64,000 nucleotides of DNA from a virus: positions 1-64,000 of the IMG/VR virus record IMGVR_UViG_3300027869_000006; one strand, given 5' to 3'. The notes beneath the pieces are model-generated. The model saw only the letters and a program-made list of their open reading frames with translations, did not search any database and was not told where the DNA came from. Each line of letters begins with the position of its first letter. The stretch's first letter is position 1. This document shows positions 38,284-58,426 of this stretch, piece after piece. Both the position numbers and the translations under genes were made by a program.

Positions 38284-38292
38284 GAGAACACT

Positions 38293-39045
38293 ATGTTTAC
38301 AATTGCACGCTACGGTTGGCGTCCCGATGTGCCCGACCAAAGAGATCATCTCTACCGCGCCAAGCCACTGGTAGCACTCCCACCAAGCATCGATATGCGG
38401 GGGATGTGCCCGCCTGTCTACGATCAGGGGCAACTCGGCAGTTGCACGGCGAATGCCATCGCGGGGGCCATTGAGTTCAATCAGATCAAACAGAGCCTCC
38501 CGGAGTTTACCCCGTCACGCCTCTTCATCTACTTCAATGAGCGAGTGATTGAACATACGATCCACAGTGACGCGGGGGCCTCACTGCGGGATGGCATCAA
38601 GACGATTGCGAGTACGGGCGTGTGCGATGAGAAGGAGTGGCCCTATGTGATCCGTAAGTTTGCCAAACGCCCGATCCCTGTGTGCTACACGCTCGCCAAA
38701 ACCGACCTCGTGACCGGCTACACGAGGCTCGACAATACGCAACTTGACCAACTCAAATCGTGCCTGGCTTCGGGCTTTTGCTTCGTATTTGGGTTCACGG
38801 TCTATGAGAGCTTTGAAAGTCAGGTAGTCGCGAGTTCCGGCATCGTGCCTCTCCCCGCGTCCCAGGAGACAGTACTTGGCGGGCATGCTTGTGTGGCGGT
38901 CGGCTATGACGATGCGACCGGTCGGTTTACCGTGCGCAACTCATGGGGCGCGAGTTGGGGCACGGCAGGCTACTTTACCATCCCGTATCAGTATCTGAGC
39001 AGTAGCACACTCGCTGCTGACTTTTGGCAAATAAGCAGCAGCTAG
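38293..39045 (+). CDS. Papain-like (C1A) cysteine protease in the tail operon
   Basis: ATG 38293 follows AGGAGAACACT; 250 residues. All C1A catalytic positions are visible: Gln47 and Cys51 (QGQLGSCTANAIAGAIE), His198 (VLGGHACVAVGYDD) and Asn216 (TVRNSWGASWG). There is no signal peptide and only a short pro-region, like bacterial stand-alone C1A enzymes. Lying between tail-tip and receptor-enzyme genes, it is likely carried on or released with the virion, acting on host surface proteins or processing tail proteins. That role is inferred from position. Confidence 0.85.
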   Translation: MFTIARYGWRPDVPDQRDHLYRAKPLVALPPSIDMRGMCPPVYDQGQLGSCTANAIAGAIEFNQIKQSLPEFTPSRLFIYFNERVIEHTIHSDAGASLRDGIKTIASTGVCDEKEWPYVIRKFAKRPIPVCYTLAKTDLVTGYTRLDNTQLDQLKSCLASGFCFVFGFTVYESFESQVVASSGIVPLPASQETVLGGHACVAVGYDDATGRFTVRNSWGASWGTAGYFTIPYQYLSSSTLAADFWQISSS

Positions 39046-39062
39046 GAAGAGGAGGGGAACGC

Positions 39063-42000
39063 ATGACTTCAGTCATACACGGCTGGCCAACAATTGACGA
39101 TAATCCACTGGGGATCACCCACGGCGCATTTACGACGAAGCTGATTAATCCGCAACTGTTCACCGACGCGGTGGCACTCGGCGCGTCGCGTGTGCGGTTG
39201 CAGTTATCCATGATCCTGATCGAGCCGTCCAGTCTTAATTTCAATTGGGCCTATACCGATGATGCCTTCCAGAAGGCCAACGCCGCCGGGTTGCGGATTA
39301 CCTTTCCCTTGCGTGAGTTGAATGTCAAAGGCCCGACCAGCCCATCGTGGGCGGATTATTCCTCTCCGTGCAATCCTGGGGTCTCGTACTGGTTTGGCAA
39401 GGAGAGTAATTGGGCCGACTTTGCTGCAAAGTTTTGCCGCCGCTATAGTGGTGACGGCAACCCAGAAAACGCGATAGCGAATGATGGAAGTAAGCGACCC
39501 ATCTGGGTGGACAACATCGAAGTTGGGAATGAAGATTTCGATACCCACGGCGATCTGGTGAATTGCCGTAACCCCATGCGCTACGTGCTGATGGCGAGAA
39601 CCGTTGTGCCACGCATGCGCCTGGCTGTCTCGGCGGGCGGCGGCGGTTGGACACGAAGAATTGGGACATGGGGATGCTTCTGGCAGGATCAGACGCACAT
39701 CAAAAACGTGTATAACACCCTCGTCAATCCACCCACTGATGCCACCTACAATCCCGGCGGGGATCATACCGATGTACTCACCCTCTTTGATTATGTCAAC
39801 TTCCACAATTATCAGGTACCGGCCTACGGGGGAGGCTCCGCCCCCTATCGCATCGATACGGAACTGGACGACATCCGCGCGATCCTGAACGCCAATGGGC
39901 ATGCCCTCATGCCGATCTGGTGTACCGAGTTTGGGCAAACCGGCCCAGCCGGTGGGGCATCGCCGCAATCGCAGTCAGACTACTACAACACGAGCGGCGG
40001 CCTGGGCGCGCTCCGGACCCTCAAAAATCATGGTGCGCAGCACGCCGATCTCTACACATGCTCCTATGACGCGCCAAATGGTGGCTATCTCGGTGATACC
40101 AAAAGTATTGCCTGTCTCACCAGTGGCGGGACGCCCGTCCGTTTCCAGGCGTTCAGTACGGTGCAGACCTTCCTCAAAGTCGATAACGGCGCATGGGCCG
40201 CACGCGCCATTCCGCTCGGCTTTGGGAGTAGCGGCGGCGGCGGAACGGGCAGGTTTACCCTCACGCCCTCGACACTCTCCTTTGCCGCGACGGTCGGGGC
40301 GGGCAATCCCGCATCGCAACCCATCACCATCGATACTACTGGCACGCTCGACGGTACCTGGGGATTGGCAATCACCGGCGGCGCATGGCTCACGGCCTCC
40401 TCCTCGTCTGGTGCACTGAACGCGGGCGCAAGTACGAGCGTGAACCTCACCGCCGCAACAGGGAGCCTCACCGCCGCAACCTATACCGAGACGGTGACCG
40501 TGACCTTTACGCCAACGGGGCAGTCGCCGCTCACCGCGACCTGTACCGTCACCTTTGTGGTGTCGTCCTCCAGTGGCACGGTCTACTTTGCGAACCCGGG
40601 TGATAACCTCGTGACGAAGATCAACGCGCTAGTGCCTGGCGATACGCTCAACTTGAACGATGGAAGCTATACCGAAACACATTTGATGCTGATCTCTGGC
40701 GTGCATGGGACATCTGCACACCATATCACCATCCAAGCAACCAATGATGGGAAAGCCGTGGTTGACGGAAAGAACACCGGGTCGAATTATCCCTTGTATA
40801 TGGCAGATAGTACCTATGTCGATGTGCAGAGCATTATCTTTCAAAATTCTGGACCTGGCTCCGTCTATGAGTTTTTCGGCGCGACAGGCGGCGGCGTGAG
40901 CAATGTCAACATCCGGCGCTGCTCCGGCTATCACGCGGCTGGTGGCAACGACCACATCTATAACTTACTTGGCCCTGGCCTCAGTAATATCCTGATAGAA
41001 GATGGGGTCGCAAGTGGCCCTGGTCGCTATATGTTTTCGACGTATCACAACTCGACCATCATCTTCAGGCGCTGCTTTGCCTACTGGAATAAAATTACCG
41101 ATACCGCGCAAGAACCACGCTCGTGTTTTAATACCTATGGCAGCGATCATGTGACCTGGGAAAACTGTTATGGCATCAATGCCATCCCCTATCAAGCTGA
41201 AGCCCAACAAAATTATTACTCCGCGACCTTTCAAACATCGGATTCGACGAGCTTGCCAGATACAGCAACACAAGTGCTTGGCTGCATTTTCGTCAACAAC
41301 TACGAAGGCTATTACTTGAACGATCTAGGCGTTGGCAGTACGACCTTCAAGGATTGTTACTTTGAAACGCCGCCACCGGCCAATACGAGCTTCACGAACA
41401 AAGTCTTCGGAGACGGTTTCTATGACAATGGCAACGCGGGTAGCCATACGATCACCAATTGCACGTTTCGCAACTGCGTCACCGGGCTCAATCTCGCCTC
41501 CGGCAGTCAAGCCATCCCAGTGCTGAACAGTGTGTTCGTCGGCAACAAGACGGCCATCACCAATGACAACAGTCATACCTTCTGCGATTTCTTCGATAAC
41601 ACGGCCAACGGTGTCGCGCTCGCTGCCTCTGACCTCTCCGTTGATCCTGGGTACAACATCACGCTCTATGGACGCGGCGGCGCACTCTTTATTCCGAGCA
41701 GTTCGGCACTGGAAGGCGCGGGATCGGGCGGCGCGGATATCGGCGCGAATATTCTCTACCAGTACGTGAATGGGACACTCACGACCACGCCACTCTGGCC
41801 GTGGCCAATGGAAGGCCGGATCATGGCGGAACTCGGGATCAGTCCGACGTTTGCCGCAAATGGGGGCCTCTTCCTCACACTGTCAGGGCTCTATACGGGG
41901 GGTAGCGGTGGAGGTGGAGGAGGGAGCGGAGGTACCCTGACTGGCGCATTCACCGCCCTTGGAGCCGGAACCAGTGTCAATCTGACGGCGCTTGGTACGG

Positions 42001-42218
42001 CTGATTGGATGCATACCGGACTCACGAGTGCGTCCAGTGTGGATCACAAGAGTACCGGCGGATCGCAGATTACCGCGCCATCCATCGTCGGGAGCGGCAC
42101 GCCGGTGCAGAATACCATGGCCATCGTCTCGGCATCCTGGTCCGATGGCACACCTGATAGTAGCGCGGCCAGTACGACCACCGGGAGCAAAATGCTGCCA
42201 GGGCCTATTACGGGCTAG
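39063..42218 (+). CDS. Virion enzyme: glycoside hydrolase barrel, BACON-like domain, beta-helix
   Basis: ATG 39063 follows GAAGAGGAGGGG; 1051 residues. Residues 1-380 form a TIM-barrel hydrolase of clan GH-A type, with Glu157 (IEVGNEDF) and Glu289 (IWCTEFG) as acid/base and nucleophile. About 387-485 is a BACON-like Ig domain (FTLTPSTLSFAATVG). About 490-890 is a right-handed beta-helix of the pectate-lyase/tailspike sort with many parallel N-rich turns. A glycine linker leads to about 95 residues that equal the first half of a module found whole in the next protein (about residues 1020-1185). The module stops at a TTTG motif, so this end looks truncated. Probably a receptor-degrading tail protein. 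Confidence 0.82.
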   Translation: MTSVIHGWPTIDDNPLGITHGAFTTKLINPQLFTDAVALGASRVRLQLSMILIEPSSLNFNWAYTDDAFQKANAAGLRITFPLRELNVKGPTSPSWADYSSPCNPGVSYWFGKESNWADFAAKFCRRYSGDGNPENAIANDGSKRPIWVDNIEVGNEDFDTHGDLVNCRNPMRYVLMARTVVPRMRLAVSAGGGGWTRRIGTWGCFWQDQTHIKNVYNTLVNPPTDATYNPGGDHTDVLTLFDYVNFHNYQVPAYGGGSAPYRIDTELDDIRAILNANGHALMPIWCTEFGQTGPAGGASPQSQSDYYNTSGGLGALRTLKNHGAQHADLYTCSYDAPNGGYLGDTKSIACLTSGGTPVRFQAFSTVQTFLKVDNGAWAARAIPLGFGSSGGGGTGRFTLTPSTLSFAATVGAGNPASQPITIDTTGTLDGTWGLAITGGAWLTASSSSGALNAGASTSVNLTAATGSLTAATYTETVTVTFTPTGQSPLTATCTVTFVVSSSSGTVYFANPGDNLVTKINALVPGDTLNLNDGSYTETHLMLISGVHGTSAHHITIQATNDGKAVVDGKNTGSNYPLYMADSTYVDVQSIIFQNSGPGSVYEFFGATGGGVSNVNIRRCSGYHAAGGNDHIYNLLGPGLSNILIEDGVASGPGRYMFSTYHNSTIIFRRCFAYWNKITDTAQEPRSCFNTYGSDHVTWENCYGINAIPYQAEAQQNYYSATFQTSDSTSLPDTATQVLGCIFVNNYEGYYLNDLGVGSTTFKDCYFETPPPANTSFTNKVFGDGFYDNGNAGSHTITNCTFRNCVTGLNLASGSQAIPVLNSVFVGNKTAITNDNSHTFCDFFDNTANGVALAASDLSVDPGYNITLYGRGGALFIPSSSALEGAGSGGADIGANILYQYVNGTLTTTPLWPWPMEGRIMAELGISPTFAANGGLFLTLSGLYTGGSGGGGGGSGGTLTGAFTALGAGTSVNLTALGTADWMHTGLTSASSVDHKSTGGSQITAPSIVGSGTPVQNTMAIVSASWSDGTPDSSAASTTTGSKMLPGPITG

Positions 42219-42230
42219 AGGGAGAGAACG

Positions 42231-45200
42231 ATGCCGCCACATGTCATGATCTGCGCACTGGAAAACCACTCCTATACCCAGGTGATCGGGAACAGCAACT
42301 TTCCCCACATCACAGCGCTCGCTGCTGCCTATGGCAATTGCACCAATTACTTCGCGGTGACCCATCAATCACTGCCAAACTACATGGCGATCTGGTCGGG
42401 CGATGATCAGTGCGTGGAAGATTCCTTTGTCCCCGGTGCCGGACTCGCGGGCGCGACACTTGCCGATAGCCTGGACGCGGCGGGGATTGGGTGGAAACAC
42501 TATGCGGAGAACTTACCGAGTGCCGGGTATATTGGCCCAGATAGCGGCGGATTTGTGCAGCATCACTGCCCCTCGGCCTATTTCAAGAGCTTTATTGGCA
42601 ATACGACCGCCTATAAGCAGGCGCACCTCGTGAACTACACCAATCTTACCACCGATCTCACTGCCGGGACGGTGCCACCATTTGTCTTTATCCAGCCAAA
42701 TAACGCGCACAACGGGCATACCGATCCGACCAACTCAAGCGACGGGTGGGTGCAAGGATTTGTGACGCTGGTGCAAGGCTCGTCCTGGTATGCAGCGGGT
42801 GGCATGATTATCCTCTGGTATGACGAGAGTCACCCGGATACTGACAATGCAGGCATCGGTGACAAGGGATGCGCAAGTGCCTATCCGGGTGGCGGGAAAA
42901 CCGTGTGTATCGTCATTTCTGCTGCCAACGCCAGCATCGCCCCCATGACCTCCAATATCAATTCGTACGGCATCCTGCGCGGTATCGAAAAGCTCTATGG
43001 CCTGCCCTTCCTCTTGAAGAGTGCTCACACGATTGACGGCGATCTCTCACCACTACTTGGTGTGGGTGTGTCTCCACCTCCACCACCTCCACCCCCACCA
43101 CCGCCAGCAGGCTTTACCGTGACCCCGACCGCGCTCAACTACACCGCGACCGTGGGTGGTGGCAATCCGGCCAACCAAAATCTGACACTGCACAATACGA
43201 GCAGTTCAGTGAGTGGCACGTGGGCACTTGTCTTCTCTGGCGGATCGTGGCTTTCTGCTGCAAGTACATCCGGCACGCTGAATGCGGGCATCTCGTTTGT
43301 GGATGCCGTGAGCGTGAGCATTACTGGTCTCACTGCCAACACCTACACCGAAACGGCGACCTTTACGTTTACACCGTCGTCTGGCGCACCCATTGTGGTC
43401 CCGGTGACCGTGACGCTGTTCCTCTCCACCACACCACCGCCGCCACCGCCGCCACCCCCACCGGCGACCGTTTCAAATCTTGGCAACGGCTTCACCTTGA
43501 CCGCGCCCGCCGATACAACGCCTCGCACGCTCGAGGTGTACTGCGATGTCGATAGAGGCACGGCCACCTTTGCGGCCTCGCTTTCAGATGGAAGTGTGCC
43601 CGACTTTTATGATAGCTCGCTCTCCAATATGTCCGGTGTGTCCGCTGGCCAGTATGCGCTTTCCTACCAGGCGGGGAGTCCAGGGAAACTCCTCTCGGTG
43701 ACCTACGTGCTGGAAAAAGGATTGACCACTGGTGTGGGAGTGTCCTCTGATACCTATAACCGAGCCAATCAAAGCGGACTCGGCACGGCGTCTGACGGCG
43801 AAACCTACAGCCTGGTGAGTGAAAACGGCACGCCCGCCTGGAGCATTGTGGGCAATGCGGGACAGATGGCAGGGAGCGCCGCCAGTAGCGGGATTGCACT
43901 GCTTGGCACGCACACCCTACAGGACGGCGAGGTGCTTGGTATCGTGAATCTTTCCAATCTCGCCAATTCTGGCGGCCTGGTGATGCGTGCGACGGCAGGT
44001 GCCGCTTCCTACTACGCTGCCGTACTGACAGGCTCGACGATACAACTCATCTATATGACCGGCGGCGATGCCATCGTGCTCACCAGCCAGCCAGCCACGC
44101 TCAAGGTGACCACGTCGTATCTGCTGCGGTTTCGCATTGCGAAAAACTGCCTGTGGGCCCGCTACTGGCCAAATGACGGGTCGTCCGAGCCAAAGAAGTG
44201 GTCGGCATTCAAGGTGGACAGCCATCTCACACAAGCCGGACTCTCCGGGCTACGTGGGAGTATCGCAACCAGTTCTGATACCGTGCTCTTCGATACCTAT
44301 AGTACCCTTGACCTCTCGACTCCTGGCGATCCGTCGTCAGTCTCGCTCTACTCGGCGGCGCTTGCGGGTGCACCCATGAACTCGCCCGGGACGCTTCCGG
44401 GGCAAGTCTTTGTGAACGGGGTGTCGAACTACATCTTTGGCACCAATATGAGCACCGACTTTGCCGCCACTACCGTGCGCAATACGCCTGCCATTCAGAG
44501 TCAGATCAAGGCGGCAGGCTTCACGATCATGCGCTGCGCCATCCCCAACGGCTCAAGTAACGCCTATATCGACCTCACCGCAGCCGCGTGCAACGCCTGC
44601 GGGACGGTCATGCTGGTCATTCTCTCCGATACGGATAATGTGTGGAACCAGAGTCTCGTCACCTATCTTGGTAGTCGCTGCTTGTTGTATGAGTTTGGCA
44701 ATGAGCCCGATCTTGCCATTGCCGGAGCCACCTACCTTGCGAACTGGAACAGTTTCATTCCGGTGTTACGAGCACTCAACACCGGTGCGGCCTTCATCGG
44801 ACCTGCCCTTGGTGTCTTTGCCAACGTCAACACCTATCTTGTCCCCTGGCTCCAGGGGTGCGTCACCAGTGGGGTGATGCCATCGGCTATTTCCTACCAC
44901 GTCTATCCCTGCACCAGTTCCACGTGCGATCAGACCTGCTGTACCCCGCTCTCCGGCAATTTTGCGCGTGATGCCGCGACGCTACGAGCGGCGATTGCGA
45001 CGGTCACGCCACTCTCTCTCCCGATTTGCTTGACCGAGTGGAACATCGATGCCAGTAACCCGCAGAAAGCCTATACGCAGCAGAACCCCTTCAATACGAC
45101 CTGGACGGAAGCGGCGATGGAGAGTATGGTCGCCGGGCACCTGGATATGGCCTGCCAGTGGGACGCGGCGGGCAACGCGGGCGGCGGCACCGATGACTTG

Positions 45201-48200
45201 ATCTCGACGCAATCGCCCTACCCACAACAGGTGCAGTACGCGCCGATGGTGGTCGAAATCGCGAAATACCTGGGCAATAGTTCGCCCCCGCCCGCGAACG
45301 GTTCGCTTGCGGTCACCTCCACCACGCCCACCGGGTCGATCAATCTCACCCTTGAGACCGGTGATTGGGCCCACTGGGGCTATCCTGGCGCGTTTGCGTA
45401 TGAGCATAAAGCGGGAGTCACCCCCACCATCAGCAATTTTACGGAAATCGGCAGCAGTGCCATGAGTCAGGATACCGCCACGCCGATCACCTATGTGTGG
45501 ACGGATGGGACCCCGGACGGCAGTGTGACGACGACAACTGGGTGTACGGTCGTGGGCGTGGCGAACGGCTTCTACCTGACGGCGCCTGCAGATACCACCT
45601 CGCGCACCCTGGTGCTCTACGTGGAGGCAAAACTCGCACAAGGGCAACTCACCGCGACACTTTCCGATGGCAGTGCCGCTGCCTTCATCGACAGTTCGCT
45701 CAACGATACCGGTGGGGGTGGCTCTATGCTGCGGTACGTGATCGTCTACAATGCGGCAAGTCTCTCGCAAACGCTCACCGTGCAGTGGACGATGCTGATG
45801 GATTACGGCGTGGCAAGTGGACTCACGACCTATTCAAGCGATACGATGACCCGCGCCAATCAAACCAATTGGGGCACCTCGTCCGGCGGGGAAACCTGGA
45901 CGAAGACCGATGTAGTGGGGACGACAGCAGCCTCCATTGTGAGCAACATGGGGCAAGTCACCGCCTCCTCCGGCAGCCCGTCAGAGGTCGCGCTGTTGGG
46001 GACACAAGTACAAGCGAATGCCGAGAGTTATGTCGAGTGGGAAGTCTCCAGCATCCTTGATCAGCCAAGCCTCGTGCTGCGTGCGACGGCGACGAACACC
46101 TTCTATCGCGCCTGTGTGACCGGCGGCAATACGCTGGAACTTGATCGCAATGTGGCGGGCGCGGTGAATATGCTCAAGAACACGGGTGTTGCCATCAGTC
46201 CGAATACGCTCTACGCCATGCGTTTTCGCATCAATGGCTCTAATTATTATGTCAAGCATTGGCTGAAAAGTGGGAGCGAACCGGCGGGTTGGTCAATCAC
46301 CGGCACCGATAGCGGCGCGACTGCCATTACCGGCGCCGGGCAATGGGGCATCAGAACACGCGTCAACGCCCCATCCGATACGATCAAGTACCAGAATTTC
46401 AGTGTGACCAACTTTGGGACGGGTGGTGGTGGAAGTGCCGGAAGTATTGGATTGCATGCAGCGACAGCGCCAAGCGTCGTGGTGAGTCCTCCACCGCCTG
46501 GGCCACCTCCTCCACCTCCACCTCCACCGCTTCCCCCGCCGCCTGGACCACCTCCCGCGCCCGTGGTCGCGATTGTGGTGAATGCGACTGATGCCAGTTC
46601 GCAGCCGTTTAAGGGCTTTGGCGTGCAGCAGGATGCGTATAACGGGTCCTGGCTGCATGTGGCAAACGGGCAGATCGTCAACGATGCGGGAAAGCCTGTC
46701 TTCTTGCGCGGACTCAATACGGCAGGGTTGGAATATGGGAATGGGACGGCAGGTTTCACCCAGGCCCGCATCAACGCCTTTGCGAGCAATTTTTCGATGA
46801 ACCTCTGGCGCGTGTGTATCAACGTCTCCTGGTGGAACAACAACGTGCTGATGCCTGATGGGATCACGCACTATAAGGATTGGATACAGACGGTCATTGG
46901 GTGGATGAAGGCGGCGGGGAACTACGTTGAGATTGACCCGACCAATTACTGTACCATTCCACCGCAACAGAGCGGGCAGCAGTGTAGTGATCTTGGCAAT
47001 CCGCCTTATTCGACCTCCGATATGTTCAACCGCGCAAATGCTACAAGCACCTGGGGGACGGCTTCCAGCGGGAAGGTATGGGTACAGAAGGCTGGGCTCA
47101 GTAGCTATCTCTCTCTCAGTAGTGGAGAGGGGGTCATTTCGACTGGTGTGTTTGACTTTGTTGACATGATCCTGGGAACAGAGACGATTGCTGATACTGA
47201 AGCACTCGTGCGCCTGGCAATCAACGACCCGACGAATAACCCGTTCGCCGGTATTCTGCTCCGCTATACCGACGAGAATACCTACTACTGGGCACAGATC
47301 AATGGCGGTCATACGTGGCTAGGGAAGCTGGTAGCGGGAGCGAATACCACTCTGGCAAATTCGGCTCTTACACACACGAGCGGCCAATTCTACTGGATGC
47401 GTTTCAACGTCACGGGTACGACACTCAAGGTCAAGACCTGGCCCGACGATGGGAGCCCAGAGCCAGGAAGTTGGGAGATCACCGTGACGGACAGCGCACT
47501 CACATCGGGATATATGGGCCTTACTGCATCCTCGAGCGTTTCGCCCAATGGGGCGCAGTTTGATACCTTCACAGCAGGCACACCGGTCACTGCCTGTATT
47601 ACGAGCCAGGATACACAGAATAATCCACCCTGGACGGATGCGCAAAAACTGACGGCAACTACTGCCTTCTTTAGCGACTTCATTGCGAACTATTACCCGA
47701 GTGATCCCGCCATTCTGTTTGACTCGCTCAACGAGCCGACCGGCTTTGCAGACCAATACAGTGCCAACGGGACGGTGATTGCTGCGATCAGGGCACTTCA
47801 GCCACATTCGCTCATCTTCATCTATTCGGCCTCCCTTGCCGGTATCTACGCCGGGGCAGAGCCAGATTACCCTGAGCCCGACCTGGTATGGGATTATCAC
47901 CTCTATGACGATTACCCGTCAAATACCTGGCAGAACAAGATCATCAATAATGAAGCGAGTGGCTGGCCGTTTGCCCAGGCACACAATAGAGGCGTGAGTA
48001 TCGGGGAATGGAATGCCAACATCACCAATGACCCGGGTGGGTTTGCGGCAGCCATTGCCAGCCTTGCCACCACCTCTGGCTTTGCGACGACGTACTACCA
48101 GGCGGGCAACGTCCTCTCTGGCGATAATGTGACCGTGACCGCCGAGGGCCTGCTTGTGCAAACACCGGCCTTTGGAGCTATTGCGACTGCCGAGGCGGAG

Positions 48201-48590
48201 GTGGCACCAGCATCCGGGACCGGCGTGTCGTCTGGTCCCGCGTCGCCGATTTCACCCACGCAGCGTGCCCTCATCAATAGCAGGCTGGCCTTTATGAACC
48301 CACCGATCATCAGGACAGCAGCCACCTCCGTCGCCTGGTGGTGCCCCACCGGCGTGGTCGGTACCTATGATTTCACGAATGCGCTGATGCAGGAATGGTA
48401 TGCCGTCTTTGAGAATGCCCAGGCCCAAGGTATCGATGTGATCGTGAGCGTGAACTCGCCCGCGCCCTTCACGCTCTTATCAAGTGGCTGGTGTACGGCC
48501 TTTGCCGATTTGATCGATCACCTGGTCAACACGCGTGGCTACACCTGTATCACGTATGTGAGCGGGCTCTCTGAGCCGGATACGTTCTGA
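42231..48590 (+). CDS. Giant mosaic virion enzyme: phosphoesterase, BACON, two hydrolase barrels, repeated LamG-like modules
   Basis: 2119 residues. 1-285: phosphoesterase (phospholipase C/acid phosphatase AcpA type; ENHSYTQVIGNSNFPHI, NYMAIWSG, DESHPDTDN). Then polyproline, BACON-like domain (about 300-400), polyproline. Then the second half of a module whose first half ends the previous protein. Three paralogous LamG-like units begin DTYNRANQ (about 505), DTMTRANQ (1205) and DMFNRANA (1595). A GH-A barrel at about 720-1015 has FGNEPD and LTEWNID. At 1455 begins another hydrolase (PFKGFGVQQDAY), interrupted by a complete GH5 (SLNEPTG, SIGEWNAN). It resumes at about 2003 and stops just after the acid/base Glu (GLSEPDTF). 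Likely a tail fibre acting on surface polymers. Confidence 0.8.
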   Translation: MPPHVMICALENHSYTQVIGNSNFPHITALAAAYGNCTNYFAVTHQSLPNYMAIWSGDDQCVEDSFVPGAGLAGATLADSLDAAGIGWKHYAENLPSAGYIGPDSGGFVQHHCPSAYFKSFIGNTTAYKQAHLVNYTNLTTDLTAGTVPPFVFIQPNNAHNGHTDPTNSSDGWVQGFVTLVQGSSWYAAGGMIILWYDESHPDTDNAGIGDKGCASAYPGGGKTVCIVISAANASIAPMTSNINSYGILRGIEKLYGLPFLLKSAHTIDGDLSPLLGVGVSPPPPPPPPPPPAGFTVTPTALNYTATVGGGNPANQNLTLHNTSSSVSGTWALVFSGGSWLSAASTSGTLNAGISFVDAVSVSITGLTANTYTETATFTFTPSSGAPIVVPVTVTLFLSTTPPPPPPPPPPATVSNLGNGFTLTAPADTTPRTLEVYCDVDRGTATFAASLSDGSVPDFYDSSLSNMSGVSAGQYALSYQAGSPGKLLSVTYVLEKGLTTGVGVSSDTYNRANQSGLGTASDGETYSLVSENGTPAWSIVGNAGQMAGSAASSGIALLGTHTLQDGEVLGIVNLSNLANSGGLVMRATAGAASYYAAVLTGSTIQLIYMTGGDAIVLTSQPATLKVTTSYLLRFRIAKNCLWARYWPNDGSSEPKKWSAFKVDSHLTQAGLSGLRGSIATSSDTVLFDTYSTLDLSTPGDPSSVSLYSAALAGAPMNSPGTLPGQVFVNGVSNYIFGTNMSTDFAATTVRNTPAIQSQIKAAGFTIMRCAIPNGSSNAYIDLTAAACNACGTVMLVILSDTDNVWNQSLVTYLGSRCLLYEFGNEPDLAIAGATYLANWNSFIPVLRALNTGAAFIGPALGVFANVNTYLVPWLQGCVTSGVMPSAISYHVYPCTSSTCDQTCCTPLSGNFARDAATLRAAIATVTPLSLPICLTEWNIDASNPQKAYTQQNPFNTTWTEAAMESMVAGHLDMACQWDAAGNAGGGTDDLISTQSPYPQQVQYAPMVVEIAKYLGNSSPPPANGSLAVTSTTPTGSINLTLETGDWAHWGYPGAFAYEHKAGVTPTISNFTEIGSSAMSQDTATPITYVWTDGTPDGSVTTTTGCTVVGVANGFYLTAPADTTSRTLVLYVEAKLAQGQLTATLSDGSAAAFIDSSLNDTGGGGSMLRYVIVYNAASLSQTLTVQWTMLMDYGVASGLTTYSSDTMTRANQTNWGTSSGGETWTKTDVVGTTAASIVSNMGQVTASSGSPSEVALLGTQVQANAESYVEWEVSSILDQPSLVLRATATNTFYRACVTGGNTLELDRNVAGAVNMLKNTGVAISPNTLYAMRFRINGSNYYVKHWLKSGSEPAGWSITGTDSGATAITGAGQWGIRTRVNAPSDTIKYQNFSVTNFGTGGGGSAGSIGLHAATAPSVVVSPPPPGPPPPPPPPPLPPPPGPPPAPVVAIVVNATDASSQPFKGFGVQQDAYNGSWLHVANGQIVNDAGKPVFLRGLNTAGLEYGNGTAGFTQARINAFASNFSMNLWRVCINVSWWNNNVLMPDGITHYKDWIQTVIGWMKAAGNYVEIDPTNYCTIPPQQSGQQCSDLGNPPYSTSDMFNRANATSTWGTASSGKVWVQKAGLSSYLSLSSGEGVISTGVFDFVDMILGTETIADTEALVRLAINDPTNNPFAGILLRYTDENTYYWAQINGGHTWLGKLVAGANTTLANSALTHTSGQFYWMRFNVTGTTLKVKTWPDDGSPEPGSWEITVTDSALTSGYMGLTASSSVSPNGAQFDTFTAGTPVTACITSQDTQNNPPWTDAQKLTATTAFFSDFIANYYPSDPAILFDSLNEPTGFADQYSANGTVIAAIRALQPHSLIFIYSASLAGIYAGAEPDYPEPDLVWDYHLYDDYPSNTWQNKIINNEASGWPFAQAHNRGVSIGEWNANITNDPGGFAAAIASLATTSGFATTYYQAGNVLSGDNVTVTAEGLLVQTPAFGAIATAEAEVAPASGTGVSSGPASPISPTQRALINSRLAFMNPPIIRTAATSVAWWCPTGVVGTYDFTNALMQEWYAVFENAQAQGIDVIVSVNSPAPFTLLSSGWCTAFADLIDHLVNTRGYTCITYVSGLSEPDTF

Positions 48591-48617
48591 GAGAGAGGAA
48601 GAAAGGAGGAAGCAAAC

Positions 48618-51125
48618 ATGTCGTATACACTCTTACCAGGGCAGTCATTCTTGCCATCGGGCATTTCCAACTATGCGTTAGGCATGGTCACCACCGGCCC
48701 CTATCTCTCGCCGAACTTCCTGGACTCAAGCGCGATCCAAAGCCTGGTCAAGGCGGCAGGCACGACCGTGGTGCGTGTCTTCACCGATGACCTGGGCACA
48801 GACTCGGATGCGACACTCGACACCTACTACACCGCCATCACTAACGCGGGATGTGTGATGCTCGTGAACCTGCAACATCCGTGGGATGACGCCCGCTGCC
48901 AGCATATCGTCACCCACTACGGGTCGCGCTGCTTGTTGTATGAATTTGGCAATGAACCAAGTCTCTACACGTCCCCAACGGTCTCAACCACGCAGTATAA
49001 CTCGTACTGGACTACCACCATCCCGCATTTACGTTCGATTAACGCGGCGGCAGCGTACATGGGTCCGGCCATCATCGTGGGGGACCCTGGTGGCTACCTG
49101 TCCAGTTGGCTGACTGCCGTCGTTTCTTCGGGTATCCTCCCTGATGCCGTCAGCTTCCATATGTACTGCTCAGATACCTCGGAAACAAAGGAGATGGCAC
49201 TTGCCGCCTATTACTATGTCTATACCGAGGATATCCGGCAGCAGGTGACGACGGCACTTGGACACGAGGTAGCGATCTGCCTGACGGAATGGAACTTCGA
49301 TAGCGGGTTTCCCCCTGGCGCATGGGGGACTGATCCCACGTTCATGATCCCTTTCACAACGAACGCCTGGGGGGCTATCACAGCGGCAGGCCCGGCCCTT
49401 GCCTGCATCTTCAATATCTGTAGCGGCGCGGGTGGAGGTGGTGGCCTGCTTGACCTGATTGACTCGGTGACCCAGGCCCCACGTCCCAATGGGCAATACA
49501 GCACGCTTGCTAGCCTGTTTGCCGCTGCCCAGCATGCGCCGGTGACGCCACCGCCCGTGCCGATCAGCGCCTACGCTTCCGTCATCCAGGCTGATACGCC
49601 GCTCTGGTACGGACGCGGGGATAGCCGTGATGTGAGCGGGAACGCGCATAACGGCACGATGGTCGGGTATGTCGAACTGGGGCAAGCCGGACTCCTGCCC
49701 TACGATCCGATGACGAGTATGAACTTCGGGGGCAGTGGCTATATCAGCGTGCCCACAGCTACCCTGCCAACGGGGGCGCATGCCTGGTCAATGGAATGCT
49801 GGTTCTTGTGGCCAACACTCGAGCTCACCAACTACGATGGCTTGATGGACATGGGAACACGCGTTTCTACAGAAGAGGTCTCCTTCTATTACGACCAGGT
49901 GAGCGGCAAGCTCTCCAATGGGACATTTGGGGACGTGGACGTAGAAGCAACGCCAGCAGTCGTCGCGAACCAGGTCTACTACGGGGTCATTACCTACGAT
50001 GGAACGACGAGCACGATTGATCTGTACAGTTCGCTCGGGCGTGTGAGCACATCTGCTGCACGCACCATCAACCTGGTCCAGACCCATGCAGGCATCGGGG
50101 GGACGGCGAATGTGGCCGTGCCGTTTACCGGGCGCGGGCAGGAGTTCGCCTTCTATGGCTACGCGCTTTCGGGAACGCAGAAAGCGGCCCACTACGCGGC
50201 AGGCACGACACCGCCGCCGCCATCCTTTGGGTATGCGAACTACAAAAACATCATTGAACCCAACCTGGTGGCGGCACTTGCCGCGAAGAATCTCTTGAAC
50301 GTGGTTTCCCTCATCGGGCCGGAAACGACGATGCAAAATGATGCCTGGCTCAGCAGTGCCGCCGCCGATCTCTCCGGCACGCTGGAAGGCTACATCCGGC
50401 ATGCTTTCCCGACGGGTGCCACCGATATCAGCAGTGGGGGCATTGAGGTGGCAATGGATACTCTGGTTCCGACCATCTTAGCGCATGACCCAACAGGCAT
50501 CGTCCTGCAGGGTGAGATGGGGTCGGGCTACTACGGGCCTGGGCCGCAAGTCGCGGGCTATCAGTACGGCGTCGAAATGACCGATTTCGCGGTGCAGTTG
50601 GCACGTGCGAAGATGAGTGCCTTCATCGCCTACCTCCTCGACGATGACATGACGGGCACCATGTGGGGCATGTGGAAGCTCACCGATCCACTGGGCGGCG
50701 CTCCACTGCGTCCCTGGTTCTTCCCATGGTCGCTCTTGTGCAAGAGCATTGCCGAGGGAAGCACGCTCTACGCGCCAGCACAGCCCTCGACCAATGATCT
50801 GCGGGTGCTGGCGGCAGAGAGCCCACAAGGGGCCTGGACGTTTGTGCTCGTCAATCGTGCTGGTGGCGCCCGTACTCTCCGGCTGTCCGTTCCATTCGCG
50901 CCACCAGCCACTCAGACCTTGCAGCAGTACATCTATGCAGAGGCCGTGCCACGCGTAGTGGATGGCAATGGCTTCCCGCTACCGGCAGGGACGATCACCG
51001 CGAACCTGGCGCGTGGGTTCAGCGTACCGATGGCGGGCAATTCCGTGCTCATTTTGACGCAGCAGACGGCGACGCAAACCACGATCTATAACGTGAAGCG
51101 TCCACCCCTTCAGAAACGGAGATAG
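48618..51125 (+). CDS. Virion hydrolase: GH-A barrel, LamG domain, and second half of the split hydrolase
   Basis: ATG 48618 follows GAAAGGAGGAAG; 835 residues. 1-310: a clan GH-A barrel with Glu near 112 (YEFGNEPS) and 224 (CLTEWNFD), close kin of the barrel at about 720-1015 of the preceding protein. 315-530: LamG domain (DVSGNAHNGTMV...SMECWFLW). After TTPPPPSF, residues 536-815 continue the hydrolase broken off at the end of the previous gene: FGYANYKNIIEPNLV, LIGPETT, nucleophile-like QGEMGSGY, WGMWKL, and the C-terminal beta domain. The last 20 residues are basic. If both proteins meet in the virion, the split barrel could reassemble. Confidence 0.8.
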   Translation: MSYTLLPGQSFLPSGISNYALGMVTTGPYLSPNFLDSSAIQSLVKAAGTTVVRVFTDDLGTDSDATLDTYYTAITNAGCVMLVNLQHPWDDARCQHIVTHYGSRCLLYEFGNEPSLYTSPTVSTTQYNSYWTTTIPHLRSINAAAAYMGPAIIVGDPGGYLSSWLTAVVSSGILPDAVSFHMYCSDTSETKEMALAAYYYVYTEDIRQQVTTALGHEVAICLTEWNFDSGFPPGAWGTDPTFMIPFTTNAWGAITAAGPALACIFNICSGAGGGGGLLDLIDSVTQAPRPNGQYSTLASLFAAAQHAPVTPPPVPISAYASVIQADTPLWYGRGDSRDVSGNAHNGTMVGYVELGQAGLLPYDPMTSMNFGGSGYISVPTATLPTGAHAWSMECWFLWPTLELTNYDGLMDMGTRVSTEEVSFYYDQVSGKLSNGTFGDVDVEATPAVVANQVYYGVITYDGTTSTIDLYSSLGRVSTSAARTINLVQTHAGIGGTANVAVPFTGRGQEFAFYGYALSGTQKAAHYAAGTTPPPPSFGYANYKNIIEPNLVAALAAKNLLNVVSLIGPETTMQNDAWLSSAAADLSGTLEGYIRHAFPTGATDISSGGIEVAMDTLVPTILAHDPTGIVLQGEMGSGYYGPGPQVAGYQYGVEMTDFAVQLARAKMSAFIAYLLDDDMTGTMWGMWKLTDPLGGAPLRPWFFPWSLLCKSIAEGSTLYAPAQPSTNDLRVLAAESPQGAWTFVLVNRAGGARTLRLSVPFAPPATQTLQQYIYAEAVPRVVDGNGFPLPAGTITANLARGFSVPMAGNSVLILTQQTATQTTIYNVKRPPLQKRR

Positions 51126-51159
51126 TGACCACGTCAGAACAAGGCGAGAGGAGAGAGAG

Positions 51160-51753
51160 ATGCCACCACAAGAAGAGTCGAGTCGAGTACTGGGTTCGCA
51201 AGACATCCGGCCAATCCCAGACCCGACCGTGCTCACAACGGCAGCGAGTCTGCGGTTGGAGGAGATGCTACGCAACTTGATACAAGTAGAGATAGCGCAC
51301 CAGGCTGCCTTGTTTACTGAGAAACTAGCGACCATCGAGACAAAGTTTGAGACACGGTTTGCGATGCTTGATACCCGCACCGCCGAGCAGAAGAAAGACA
51401 CGAAAGATGCTCTAGACGCGGCACTTTCCGCAGCCAAAGAAGCCGTCGCCTCGCAAACGGCTGCCAGCGAGAAGAGCATCACCAAATCAGAGACGGCGAC
51501 GATTGAGCGGATTAAGGCAGTCGAAACACTGCTCGCTACCTCAACCAAGGCGTCAGACGATAAGAGCGATGACTTGAAAAGCCGCATCGTCGCCATTGAG
51601 GCGGTGAAACTCGGCAATATGGAACAGACCACCGCGCAACGTGAGCGAGGTCTGGAGACACGTGGCAGCATGGCCAGCGTCATGAGTATTGTGATGGCCG
51701 TGATCGCCGTTGCCAGCATTATTATTGCGATTATTGTTGTACTCAAACCATAA
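51160..51753 (+). CDS. Coiled-coil protein with C-terminal membrane anchor
   Basis: ATG 51160 behind GAGGAGAGAGAG; 197 residues. Long charged helices from about 30 to 165 with heptads, then one transmembrane segment (SVMSIVMAVIAVASIIIAIIVVL) and a short KP end. This resembles XhlA/hemolysin-type lysis accessory proteins, and a tiny two-segment membrane protein follows. A role in lysis or as a membrane-anchored tail partner are both possible. Confidence 0.65.
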   Translation: MPPQEESSRVLGSQDIRPIPDPTVLTTAASLRLEEMLRNLIQVEIAHQAALFTEKLATIETKFETRFAMLDTRTAEQKKDTKDALDAALSAAKEAVASQTAASEKSITKSETATIERIKAVETLLATSTKASDDKSDDLKSRIVAIEAVKLGNMEQTTAQRERGLETRGSMASVMSIVMAVIAVASIIIAIIVVLKP

Positions 51754-51769
51754 GAAAGGAGTCATTCTC

Positions 51770-51949
51770 ATGCATCTTGACCTAGCTATCGCGTTCCAAC
51801 TCGTGATCCTGGCATTCATCGCCTTATACTGCCTACTTGGTGCGGGCTACCCAGGCTACGTAGGGCGTGGAACAGGCGGGCATGGCTACATCCTGTGGTT
51901 CATCGTCGGGATTGCCGCCATTGTGACGGGCGTCTTGCTCGTCATCTGA
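51770..51949 (+). CDS. Holin-like small membrane protein
   Basis: ATG 51770 follows AGAAAGGAG; 59 residues with two transmembrane segments (LAIAFQLVILAFIALYCLL and LWFIVGIAAIVTGVLLVI) joined by a Gly and Tyr-rich loop. Size and topology fit class II holins or XhlB-like partners of the preceding anchored coiled coil. Another holin candidate lies at 59312, after the amidase. Confidence 0.6.
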   Translation: MHLDLAIAFQLVILAFIALYCLLGAGYPGYVGRGTGGHGYILWFIVGIAAIVTGVLLVI

Positions 51950-52017
51950 GAGAGATTCCCTCTTTCCTTAGAAAGAGGAGAGGAAAGAAGTCAAGCAGTA
52001 AGGAGAAGAGGAAAAAA

Positions 52018-52719: not shown

Positions 52720-55700
52720 ATGACCGCGCTCACGACGAACGGTTCGGCACAAGCGGCAACCACGCTCGCTGCTGCTGGCAAGATGTTTGCGGCGACGGGT
52801 GGGACGGGTGGGAATACCTCAACCAAGGTCGCCAAGAACACGACCTATGTGCAGATATTTGCCATTGGTACGACGACGACACAAGCGGGGGTCGGGAGTA
52901 TCCCTGCGCCGACGGATAGCAATTTCGCGGGTTGGATATGGGATGTGACGACCCTTGAAGGGCAGCGCATCGCGGCGGGGACCTGGACGCCGACCTTCCA
53001 CATGCTGGCCTCCTCTGCCGGCACGATTACCCCGACCGTCCAATGGTTCAAACGGTCATCGGCGGGTGTGTATACCTCCATTGGATCGGTCACCGGGTCC
53101 TCGCTCGTGCTCACTTCTTCCGCACAGGCACTTACCTTCACGCCCCCGTCCCTGGCACTCATGGACTTTGCCGTGGGTGACAAGTTCTGCATGTGGTTAT
53201 GGGTCGATATTACCGTGGCCGGTGGGAGTAACTCTGGCACGATGTCGGTCGTGGAGGCGATCAGTGGGAGCACCACGGGTACCGCATCAGAGGCTCAGGC
53301 CGTCACACCGGGGTACGCCCCATCGCCAGTAGCACTCACGGCCACGCTTGCAGGAGTAGGGACGCTCTCATCGTCGTGCTATCGCACCACGATCCTGGCC
53401 GATAACCCGCTGTACTACAACCGCGCTGGCACGGCTGACTTGGGAAGTCTGGGACATACCGCCACCATCCACGGCGGCGTCACGACCGGGCAGGCAGGCC
53501 TCCTGGTCAGCGATGTGCAGTCAAGCGACCTCTTTAATGGCTCGACCGGCTTTCTCACCGCGTCAGATACGGGGTTGCCGACAGGGGCCAGTCCGTGGAG
53601 TATCGAGATATGGATACAGTCTACCAATTTAACAGGTGACCATTCTATTCTCGACTTTGGGACAAGTTCGGGACTCAATTGGGCGGGTATCTATAGCGCC
53701 GCCGATCAATTCGTGGTGGGATCGTGGGCAAGCGGAGTCAATGCAAGTGCGCATGGCATCACGACTGGAACGACGTACTACGTCCTTGGCACATTCGATG
53801 GCACGAACACCTCCCTGTACGTGGGCAATCTCTCGACAGGGGCATTCAGTACCTACGGGCCTGTCGCCATCGCGTTCAGTGTCGTGCTCTCTGGTCTCAC
53901 CATTGGCGCAGATTCCGGTGGCGCCTATATCAGCGGGAATGCGCAAGAACGCGCCATCTATGGCGCAGCACTCACCGTCACGCAGGCAACGGCACACTTC
54001 CTTGCTGGCATCCAGGCGTTCACCCTCTCAACTGCGCTCGCCGACACCCTTGCTGGCGTGGGGACACTCACCGGGACGCTGTCGTTGTTAGGAGTAGCAC
54101 TCACAACGACAGCGGCCGGGACTAGTCTTCTGACCGTCTCTTCCCCAACGCTTGCCACCGCGCTCACGACGACAGAGGTCGGCAGTGGGACGCTTACCGG
54201 GACACTGTCGACCTCATTGACCCTGGGCGGTGCCACTGCCACCGGCGGTGGCACGCTTGCCGGCACGTGCTCGCTCTTCACGGCCCTCTCTATGACGATC
54301 ATACCGGGTGCGGGCATCCTCACCCCAACGATGAAAGCCGCCTACACGCTGAGTGGGGGCACACTCACCGGGTCGGGAACGTTGTCGGTCTCCGCCCCGA
54401 CTCTTGCGACAGCCCTCGCGGTCGAGTGCGATGGGGTGAGCAATCTTACCCCAACCATGATCGCGAGTTTTACCTTATCCGGTACCACGTTGCCAGGCAT
54501 CGGTCAGCTTTCCATCTCCGCACCATCCCTTACCACTGTACTGGCAGGTGAATGTGACGGGAGTGGAGCACTGTCCGGGCAGCTTGACGCTACCTACATG
54601 ATGAGCGGTGGCACGATGGATGGTATGGGGCAACTGTCCGTCACGGTCCCCACACTCACAACAGCACTCTCCGTTGAATACGATGGGGTTGGGATGCTCT
54701 CACCGACCATTTGGGCGAGTCTCTCGCTCGCTCTTACAGAGATAGATGGCATCGGTATGCTCTCTGTCGCTGCGCCTGCACTCACGCCGCCGCTCATGGT
54801 GGAATGTGATGGGATTGGAACGTTCTCCCCTACACTCTCGGCTTCGTACACACTCTCCGGTGCGGAAATGGATGGAGTTGGCACGCTCACGTGCATCACC
54901 AGCCTCTCGGCTGCACTGGCGGGTGAATGCGACGGCGTCGGGGCATTTCAGGCGACGCTGTCGGTCTCAGGGAGCAGTATCGCGCTGTCAGCTGAGTGTG
55001 ACGGGGTTGGGACGCTTGTGGGCACGCTCTCCGCGACGGTTGCACTTGCGATTGAGTGTGACGGTAGCGGGACGCTTTCGGCCTCGCCTTCCCTCTCCAC
55101 GGCACTCATGAGCGAATGTGGTGGGGTGGGTCGGCTTTTCGCCATAGTAGCAGTGACCACCGCACTTGCAGTCGAGTGTGATGGCATGGGGACCTTCACC
55201 CCGATACTCGAGGCATCCGTCCCGCTCAACCTGGCACTCACTGGAAGCAGTGCGCTCTTCCCCACGCTCTCACTGACGACCATTCTTTCCGTCAGTCTCG
55301 CGGGTGAGGGGATACTTGCCGGGACGCTCTCACTGCTGACCGCTCCACTGGGTATGACGCTTGCCGGGACTGGCACACTCGCAGCCACGCTTGAAGCATC
55401 AACCGCCCTGACCGCGCTCATTTCAGGCAGTGGGCAGCTTGCCGGAACGCTTGCACACATCACGGCACTCGCCTGTCTGTGCGCGGGAGTGGGCACACTT
55501 ACCGGGACATACTCACTCTCGGTTGCACTGTTCCTCACGTGCGCCGCTCGCGGGACGTTCGCCTTCATGGTCATTTCCAGGACGGGTGTGCTTGCCCAAG
55601 GCAGGAGTGGAAGTGGAACAGCGACAGGTCAAAGTGGAGTGCCTGGCGTGAGCAGTATCGGTGGGAGTGCTACGGCTCGTGGGCGCGATGGGAGTGAAAC

Positions 55701-55731
55701 CGCTCTCGGTCGTAATGGCATACTTCATTAG
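52720..55731 (+). CDS. Virion protein with LamG domain and long array of short repeats
   Basis: ATG 52720 follows GGAAGGGG; 1003 residues. 1-200: beta-rich head domain. 220-430: LamG-like domain (NPLYYNRAGTADLGSLGHTA, SPWSIEIWIQS, FDGTNTSLYVG). 435-930: about two dozen units of 18-24 residues with the pattern ALxxxxxGxGxLxGTLS. Nine units carry E-C-D-G-x-G or close variants (ECDGVGTL). The last 45 residues are Gly and Arg-rich. Such strict spacing suggests a beta-solenoid or fibrous stalk, and the Cys-Asp pairs could bind metal or form cross-links. No enzyme motif. Probably a tail fibre. Confidence 0.72.
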   Translation: MTALTTNGSAQAATTLAAAGKMFAATGGTGGNTSTKVAKNTTYVQIFAIGTTTTQAGVGSIPAPTDSNFAGWIWDVTTLEGQRIAAGTWTPTFHMLASSAGTITPTVQWFKRSSAGVYTSIGSVTGSSLVLTSSAQALTFTPPSLALMDFAVGDKFCMWLWVDITVAGGSNSGTMSVVEAISGSTTGTASEAQAVTPGYAPSPVALTATLAGVGTLSSSCYRTTILADNPLYYNRAGTADLGSLGHTATIHGGVTTGQAGLLVSDVQSSDLFNGSTGFLTASDTGLPTGASPWSIEIWIQSTNLTGDHSILDFGTSSGLNWAGIYSAADQFVVGSWASGVNASAHGITTGTTYYVLGTFDGTNTSLYVGNLSTGAFSTYGPVAIAFSVVLSGLTIGADSGGAYISGNAQERAIYGAALTVTQATAHFLAGIQAFTLSTALADTLAGVGTLTGTLSLLGVALTTTAAGTSLLTVSSPTLATALTTTEVGSGTLTGTLSTSLTLGGATATGGGTLAGTCSLFTALSMTIIPGAGILTPTMKAAYTLSGGTLTGSGTLSVSAPTLATALAVECDGVSNLTPTMIASFTLSGTTLPGIGQLSISAPSLTTVLAGECDGSGALSGQLDATYMMSGGTMDGMGQLSVTVPTLTTALSVEYDGVGMLSPTIWASLSLALTEIDGIGMLSVAAPALTPPLMVECDGIGTFSPTLSASYTLSGAEMDGVGTLTCITSLSAALAGECDGVGAFQATLSVSGSSIALSAECDGVGTLVGTLSATVALAIECDGSGTLSASPSLSTALMSECGGVGRLFAIVAVTTALAVECDGMGTFTPILEASVPLNLALTGSSALFPTLSLTTILSVSLAGEGILAGTLSLLTAPLGMTLAGTGTLAATLEASTALTALISGSGQLAGTLAHITALACLCAGVGTLTGTYSLSVALFLTCAARGTFAFMVISRTGVLAQGRSGSGTATGQSGVPGVSSIGGSATARGRDGSETALGRNGILH

Positions 55732-57240: not shown

Positions 57241-57382
57241 TAGGCGAGATGATACCCAACCCATCTTGCCCATAAGGAAGGGCTTGCTTACCCCATGCTT
57301 AAAAGACAGGGACTTCCGCAAGCCCGATTGGTGAGAGAGACCTCCCTTGACAACCACGTACAATGGGAAGAAGGAGAGAAGT

Positions 57383-58426
57383 ATGCCTGATTACCCCCTG
57401 GCTGAGGAACACTTTGTACCTCGATCATATATGTTCGATAGCAATGCATGCAAAGTTTTGGTAATTCACAAGACGGGTGGAGACGCAACCCCTGCGGCGA
57501 TCCTTCAAACGTTTCTCACGAACCCGGATCGACCATCGGTCCATTATGGCGTAGGCACAGATGGGAGTATCTGGCAGTACGTCCCTGAAGCACTCGGCGC
57601 GGGCGGGAACTGTTGCGTGGAACCGGGCTATGACCCATTCTGGGCACAATTTAACCCGATGGCTGTTGGGTCATCTTCTGGAACCAACCTGAATACAGTC
57701 ACACTCTCTCTTGAGCATTGCGATGCGGCACTTGACAATAGTACGCCACTTACCCCAACTCAGCAAGATGCGAGCTTCAAACTCATTGCCTACCTGGTCG
57801 CCAAGTATAGCATCCCCCTTTCACACATCAAGGGCCACAATACAATTGACCCACAGAGTCGCGCCCGTTGCCCAGGTAACTACCCCTGGCCCGCGTTATT
57901 TGCCTATCTACAAAATGGAGGGAATATGGCAGGAGTACCAATCGGCTGGCAATACGACCAGGCGACGCAAACATTGACGGACCCCAACGGTGGGAAGGTA
58001 GGTCCACCCTATAGCGCACACGTGTTAGCAAGTAACTGGGACCCGCATAACTTTCTTTGGATCGCCGCCTACCATACCAATCAGCTGGAAGCAGCGAACC
58101 CTGGCCTGGGTGCGGGGACACAAATCATCTTCTATGAGTCCATGCTGTGCGTGCCTGATAATCCCCCAGACCCGAACCTTGCGAACCTGAAGGGAAAAGT
58201 GGTCACGGAATATGTCGGGATTGAAGCGGCCTATGCCCGTAGTCAGTGGACCCGCTATTCGGGAATAGCCCAACAGTTTCAAACACAATTCACAGAGGAG
58301 CAGACAAAAAATACGGCCCTGACTGCCCAAGTCGCACAACTGGAAGCACAGATCGCCGCGCTCTCCCAACCCACGGCGGATGCACAGGCGATTGTGCAGA
58401 TCAAGCAGATTGTGGCGGCGCTATGA
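57383..58426 (+). CDS. N-acetylmuramoyl-L-alanine amidase (endolysin)
   Basis: ATG 57383 follows AGAAGGAGAGAAG; 347 residues. The first 180 residues are an Amidase_2/PGRP domain: zinc ligands in VIHKTGG and in HIKGHNTIDPQSRARCPG, with VHYGVGTDGSIWQYVPE between. It cuts the bond between muramic acid and the stem peptide. The middle (about 190-270) has no recognised wall-binding repeat. The last 60 residues are a coiled coil (FTEEQTKNTALTAQVAQLEAQ), unusual for a simple endolysin and perhaps for oligomerisation. Its neighbours are a small ORF, a DUF6065 gene and a holin-like gene. Confidence 0.88.
   Translation: MPDYPLAEEHFVPRSYMFDSNACKVLVIHKTGGDATPAAILQTFLTNPDRPSVHYGVGTDGSIWQYVPEALGAGGNCCVEPGYDPFWAQFNPMAVGSSSGTNLNTVTLSLEHCDAALDNSTPLTPTQQDASFKLIAYLVAKYSIPLSHIKGHNTIDPQSRARCPGNYPWPALFAYLQNGGNMAGVPIGWQYDQATQTLTDPNGGKVGPPYSAHVLASNWDPHNFLWIAAYHTNQLEAANPGLGAGTQIIFYESMLCVPDNPPDPNLANLKGKVVTEYVGIEAAYARSQWTRYSGIAQQFQTQFTEEQTKNTALTAQVAQLEAQIAALSQPTADAQAIVQIKQIVAAL

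Follow-up and report, generated by a model that had tools for sequence, protein, structure and literature searches.

Gene borders normally respect the borders of domains. In phages, the nrdA gene of Aeromonas phage Aeh1 is split by mobE, gene 43 of phage 25 is divided into 43A and 43B, with the split proteins working as two chains, and the gene for the large subunit of the T4 topoisomerase is split by mobA (PMC2988022). Within proteins, triosephosphate isomerase (TIM) barrels are the preferred hosts of domain insertions, nested architectures of the type A1-B1-C-B2-A2 have been described, and the cyanobacterial rpoC1/rpoC2 genes illustrate that nesting and gene splitting can occur together (PMC13114784). 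Furthermore, the half-barrels of a beta-glucosidase of glycoside hydrolase (GH) clan GH-A, Sfbgly-N and Sfbgly-C, fold and become active (PMC4591997). Here we analyze a stretch of 64,000 nucleotides (the window), positions 1-64000 of the 109,768-base IMG/VR virus record IMGVR_UViG_3300027869_000006, in which a GH-A enzyme, which we call the outer enzyme, is divided between two neighboring tail genes. The record holds the genes of a tailed phage (terminase, portal, protease, major capsid, tape measure and hub proteins), and three large genes located downstream of the hub gene encode, in this order, protein 3, protein 1 and protein 2.

The locus resembles the genes-in-pieces phage enzymes in that an insertion appears to have cut a phage enzyme gene into two chains, with critical regions on both sides, and one ancestral coding region is found in two separate reading frames both for the outer enzyme and for a second domain, domain D. 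It differs in the nature of the insert, which in the genes-in-pieces systems is a self-contained homing endonuclease gene or an untranslated spacer, whereas here virion enzyme and lectin domains are fused in frame to the second half; the insert in the outer enzyme is a GH-A barrel with a LamG domain, without target-site repeats, and not a mobile element. There are moreover two successive borders here, and the assembly of the halves, demonstrated in those systems, is here proposed. The nested architectures share with our locus the nesting and the TIM-barrel host, but in our case the insertion seam also breaks the chain, the halves of the host domain lie on different products, and the setting is a phage tail. 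As in Sfbgly-N/-C, a GH-A (beta/alpha)8 barrel is present as N- and C-terminal halves, but those halves were engineered, contain no inserted domains, and are each active in isolation. Genes in pieces and nested domain insertion are thus both known; what is new in the literature searched is the occurrence of two successive intradomain borders with virion enzyme inserts.

A preliminary description of this DNA had proposed that two insertions hit one ancestral glycosidase gene, leaving its pieces in their original order on proteins 1 and 2. The search for homologues of the joined sequence had been set beforehand as the test of this proposal, and it returned uninterrupted homologues, with no half complete alone. 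A scan of bacterial genomes gave 38 loci, each one open frame of ~490-530 amino acids with an N-E-P motif (one of them, L033, at a contig end), and the near full-length homologues are all single chains of ~470-530 amino acids in which the two pieces follow each other as in the phage. A plasmid search yielded one Persicobacter psychrovividus protein that matches through all three joined outer pieces. Nearer relatives, L078 and L080 (469-472 amino acids), were recovered from 396 Bacteroidota genomes, and the joined phage sequence aligns with them over its full length at 29% identity (expect value, E, 3e-50), nearly gap-free at both seams: AYN/SPISPTQ stands against AYNLNGVTDED of the homologue at seam 1, and SEPDTF/PPSFGYANYKN against NEPNFEVGNFERWKN at seam 2.

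We also built a profile from 38 intact bacterial proteins, which had been chosen with the joined sequence, leaving the phage sequence itself out, and scored it against all six-frame open reading frames (ORFs) of at least 60 amino acids in the window. The profile was significant for only two window proteins, protein 2 (E 7.9e-31) and protein 1 (E 1.2e-8), the next best value being 0.45. Profile positions 71-185 fell on residues 2015-2117 of protein 1 and positions 195-509 on residues 539-815 of protein 2, adjacent and without overlap, which is the order that had been claimed. The first piece, N (profile 27-51), was not significant alone (-2.5 bits), and its place in the order matches the GFGAEWDSRAYN segment of L078; the last, piece c, runs from FGYANYKN through WGMWKL into a beta domain (protein 2 residues 536-816). 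Pfam recognized neither enzyme half alone, so per-gene annotation misses such split domains.

The border itself is as had been described, with the claimed ORFs, stop, Shine-Dalgarno sequence and start: protein 1 ends in VSGLSEPDTF-TGA, followed by GAGAGAGGAAGAAAGGAGGAAGCAAAC-ATG (48618), and the GH-A barrel and LamG domain said to open protein 2 are both recognized by Pfam (Table 1). The acid/base residue (Glu2115) lies four residues before the end of protein 1 and the nucleophile is Glu633 of protein 2, placing the two catalytic residues on separate chains, again as proposed. Taken at the level of sequence, these data confirm that the C-terminus of protein 1 corresponds to one part of a GH-A enzyme and the C-terminal third of protein 2 to its complementary part, the enzyme being interrupted twice at seams that intact single-chain homologues span, and they place it in an uncharacterized Bacteroidota GH-A family, given that the halves match consecutive parts of one single-chain family.

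The AlphaFold model of an intact homologue (L011; predicted local distance difference test score, pLDDT, 93.5; predicted template modeling score, pTM, 0.91) consists of a (beta/alpha)8 barrel and a beta-sandwich. Cut 1 maps between beta1 (48-52) and alpha1 (72-85) of this model and cut 2 between beta4 (186-190) and alpha4 (206-222), just past the acid/base Glu, so that both cuts are predicted to lie in beta-alpha loops, which are insertion-tolerant sites. With Foldseek, the solved folds closest to the homologue model were those of GH30 (6iuj, E 4e-22; 4fmv, template modeling (TM) score by target 0.80), the TM scores by target ranging over 0.67-0.80 at identities of 10-16% and the GH79 glucuronidases standing lower in the list. 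The homologue thus has the fold of the GH30-type (6iuj, 4fmv, 1nof) and GH79-type (3vny, 7pr9) enzymes, the barrel with a side beta-sandwich, but at 10-16% identity, and unlike theirs its intact relatives are uncharacterized Bacteroidota proteins. There was no sequence match to the GH30 models of Pfam (best PF17189, E 0.17, below its cut-off), and a PDB sequence search gave no relative of the outer enzyme, which is a GH30-like clan GH-A enzyme and not a member of GH30. In an AlphaFold model of the read-through product the outer halves had a pLDDT mostly of 75-95, and the insert, for which the alignment contained no homologues, mostly of <50; alignment A3 was used, and LamG and barrel relatives, when added, misaligned the folding alignment. 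When the read-through model was used in Foldseek, the alignments spanned no more than ~260-380 columns, roughly half the length of each target, and are silent on the packing of the halves.

The first seam holds an insert that is itself interrupted. The preliminary description had a whole GH5 domain here, but this domain proved not to be contiguous: a lectin-like domain separates the matches to positions 1-85 and 95-269 of Pfam Cellulase. The order is therefore outer enzyme, GH5, lectin, GH5, outer enzyme, then the stop and start, barrel A', LamG, and the remainder of the outer enzyme, with three enzyme or lectin domains nested at the first seam. Barrel A' and the internal barrel A of protein 1 are paralogues, so the piece at border 2 is derived from the same family of domains. 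The tail hub-like protein encoded upstream (33868-38283) also carries an insertion, of ~1030 amino acids between its two conserved parts; a 611-amino-acid archaeal-virus protein (the short form, vir515) is matched on either side of it, and the insertion is common to four related contigs (G013, G002, G012 and G003). Nested insertion is, from the hub protein, a habit of this phage lineage.

The pattern is wider than the preliminary description had it, since by alignment the upstream border, between proteins 3 and 1, also cuts a domain. The matching halves of this domain, D, residues 975-1052 of protein 3 and 413-503 of protein 1, meet within ~3 residues on the intact single-chain copy farther along protein 1, an internal control, and domain D is also intact in one chain of a phage protein on another contig (L071), against which the composite of the halves scored 144 versus 45+-8, the first half alone being weak (64 versus 41+-7). 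Between the halves lie a TAG stop, a ribosome-binding site, an ATG, a phosphoesterase, a BACON-like domain and poly-Pro linkers. Borders 1 and 2 are alike in consisting of a stop, a ribosome-binding site, a start, new domains, a proline linker and the remainder of the host domain. Comparison with the intact copies shows the halves of the outer enzyme and of domain D to be complementary, each pair together corresponding to a domain that is intact elsewhere, and two split domains may thus link three tail proteins in a row.

Table 1. Features of the genes for proteins 3, 1 and 2, in order along the window (p1, protein 1).
Feature	Position	Strand	Basis or remarks
Protein 3	39024..42218	+	ORF; 1064 amino acids from TTG; likelier start ATG at ~39063
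Protein 3 layout: GH-A-like barrel, BACON-like domain, beta-helix, then first half of domain D at the end			Pfam Beta_helix, Chondroitinas_B, BACON_2, weak
First half of split beta domain D (protein 3 residues ~975-1054)	41946..42185	+	37% identity to first half of intact copy; Smith-Waterman 124 vs 43+-7.5 shuffled
Border 1, inside domain D: TAG stop, AGGGAGAGAACG (Shine-Dalgarno-like), ATG at 42231	42216..42230	+	sequence
Protein 1, multi-domain tail protein	42231..48590	+	ORF, 2119 amino acids
Phosphoesterase domain, directly after border 1 start	42231..43085	+	PF04185, E 2.3e-22
BACON-like domain, flanked by poly-Pro linkers	43113..43415	+	resembles protein 3 residues 411-510
Second half of split domain D (p1 413-503)	43467..43739	+	42% identity to second half of intact copy; 159 vs 35+-6 shuffled
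Lectin (ConA)-like domain 1	43746..44330	+	three-copy alignment
GH-A-like barrel A (GNEP / TEWN motifs)	44394..45332	+	paralogue of N-terminal barrel of protein 2; 37% identity to protein 2 residues 5-328, E 1e-42
Intact single-chain domain D (p1 ~1027-1195)	45309..45815	+	
Lectin (ConA)-like domain 2 and poly-Pro linker	45816..46520	+	three-copy alignment
Outer enzyme, piece N (beta-1 region, PFKGFGVQQDAY = p1 1459-1470)	46563..46643	+	aligns with homologue L078 GFGAEWDSRAYN
Inserted GH5 domain, first part	46647..46955	+	PF00150 profile 1-85, E 1.2e-4
Lectin (ConA)-like domain 3, within GH5	46959..47543	+	three-copy alignment; matches Streptomyces phage minor tail proteins
Inserted GH5 domain, second part (LNEP / GEWN)	47640..48107	+	PF00150 profile 95-269, E 2.4e-13
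Outer enzyme, piece b (NSRLAFMNPPIIRT...SEPDTF = p1 2016-2119)	48246..48587	+	profile 71-185; acid/base Glu2115 codon 48573-48575
Border 2: TGA stop (48588-48590), AAAGGAGG Shine-Dalgarno (48602-48609), ATG at 48618	48588..48617	+	sequence
Protein 2	48618..51125	+	ORF, 835 amino acids
GH-A-like barrel A', directly after border 2 start	48618..49562	+	PF00150, E 1.6e-5; paralogue of barrel A
LamG-like lectin domain, protein 2	49563..50201	+	PF13385, E 6.9e-7
Outer enzyme, piece c (alpha-4 to beta-8 and beta-sandwich)	50217..51071	+	profile 195-509; nucleophile Glu633 codon 50514-50516

We consider it somewhat more probable than otherwise that this is a tail operon with split host domains, the halves of which re-associate as joints, the outer barrel perhaps having little or no activity. 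On this proposal the proteins of a tail-fibre or tail-tip operon would have grown by insertion of domains inside domains, and at the 3/1 and 1/2 borders an insertion would have brought with it a stop, a ribosome-binding site and a start, leaving the host domain encoded by two successive genes. That the second insertion carried the stop, Shine-Dalgarno sequence and start is a conjecture, and the data agree just as well with a continuous nested protein that underwent fission later. The chains would be made side by side on one mRNA and the halves would re-associate non-covalently, as in phage Aeh1 NrdA, with protein 1 supplying beta1-beta4 and protein 2 beta5-beta8 and the sandwich, and with the D halves coming from proteins 3 and 1. 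The reassembled domains could then serve as joints linking proteins 3, 1 and 2, on which the inserted GH barrels, GH5, phosphoesterase and lectin domains would be displayed against host surface polymers, and the outer barrel would have little or no catalytic activity of its own left. The broader idea of an assembly principle, in which successive tail proteins are joined by single domains halved between genes and new enzymes or lectins are added inside the joints, is one that we hold only tentatively, with less than even confidence.

Several observations weigh against reassembled joints. The Asn of the N-E-P motif at the end of beta4, present in 50/50 homologues, is Ser (S-E-P) in the phage. 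The protein-1 half is 23-28% identical to homologues that are 31-71% identical among themselves in that part, and the protein-2 half is about as diverged as the homologues are from one another; because the protein-1 half has thus diverged beyond the family while the protein-2 half is in line with it, relaxed or changed constraint is suggested. In addition, the arrangement is known from one record, and no related phage has it. The change to S-E-P, the missing EWG motif of beta3 and the divergence of the protein-1 half lend some weight to the view that neither the outer enzyme nor domain D survived the insertions, and that the pieces no longer meet and persist only as spacers or fold by themselves as small structural modules, all the more as many other GH domains of the lineage have intact motifs and could do the enzymatic work. 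We nevertheless regard such relics as unlikely, given that both catalytic Glu residues, invariant in 39/39 homologues, are kept in the phage along with most of the invariant residues of both halves (14 of the 19 fully invariant positions, with Y>F, W>Y and Y>F making up three of the five changes), that the enzyme frames are intact over 110 and 285 residues with nothing lost at the seams, that a free half barrel would expose its core, and that the arrangement occurs twice, side by side.

The opposite view, that the halves reassemble into a still active glycosidase with acid/base and nucleophile contributed by two chains, draws on the same catalytic Glu pair, on the conserved His, DD pair and RPWF motif, all kept in the phage enzyme, and on the full activity of the two-chain NrdA made from a split phage gene (PMC2988022), but the Asn to Ser change before the acid/base and the missing EWG and NGxW loop residues speak against it, as do the deep insertions at beta1 and beta4, on the catalytic face, which could block the active site. 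We give it a smaller chance than the relics, in keeping with our assessment that S-E-P leaves family membership by sequence standing and puts catalytic competence in doubt; judged from these motifs, true catalysis by the outer enzyme is on balance improbable. Stop-codon read-through, which would join proteins 3, 1 and 2 and make the domains continuous in a minority product, has in its favor that the three genes share a frame in which no stop codons lie between them apart from their own, but both starts have a good Shine-Dalgarno sequence, same-frame neighbors are common in this genome (9 of 17 neighboring gene pairs, for which reason we rejected the shared frame as evidence of read-through or of secondary fission), and no Rfam element was found; we consider it very improbable. 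An equally slim chance attaches to an assembly chimera, the joining of unrelated tail genes of several phages by the metagenome assembler: the record consists of one uncultivated contig, and a second assembly containing the seam was not found, but the frames at both borders are clean and intact and have ribosome-binding sites, complementary halves in order at three seams are unexpected of random joins, and composition is similar across the pieces (GC 0.54-0.61; GC at third codon positions, GC3, 0.61-0.74). By the same values, a recent insertion marked by a composition shift was rejected. An intron or intein was likewise rejected, since comparison of 38000-52000 with Rfam gave nothing up to E 1 and a stop codon separates the halves, and so were target-site duplications, the four insertion sites showing chance 8-mers only.

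Among other viruses, searches of IMG/VR with the C-terminal part, the joined alignment or the Persicobacter protein gave no relatives, and the joined sequence matched none of the named phages. Fifteen contigs related by major capsid protein are without the outer enzyme, and what they have in common with proteins 1 and 2 is limited to single lectin domains.

The interest of the locus lies in its two successive borders inside domains, and in an active site that is single-chain in relatives and here divided between two chains. If the halves reassemble, the arrangement would be a natural example of structural proteins coupled through split domains, and would test in nature how the (beta/alpha)8 barrel copes with large insertions and chain breaks.

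The surroundings of the three genes hold further features. The N-terminal part of protein 3 (39024-40223) is a further GH-A-like barrel with GNED / CTEFG motifs and no Pfam recognition. Directly 5' of protein 3 in the tail operon is a gene for a papain-family (C1) cysteine peptidase (38293-39045), which could act in virion protein processing or on the host surface. A large protein encoded at 52720-55731 has a LamG domain resembling that of protein 2 and a long C-terminal region with repeated ECDG(V/S)G-L motifs. A NUMOD3/HNH-like homing endonuclease gene lies between the head and tail genes (27520-28641), and a transposase-like gene (phrog_506) is present at 6268-7389. Finally, a DUF6065 protein (58532-59275; strong match, E 8e-84) is encoded beside an Amidase_2 endolysin candidate (57347-58426).
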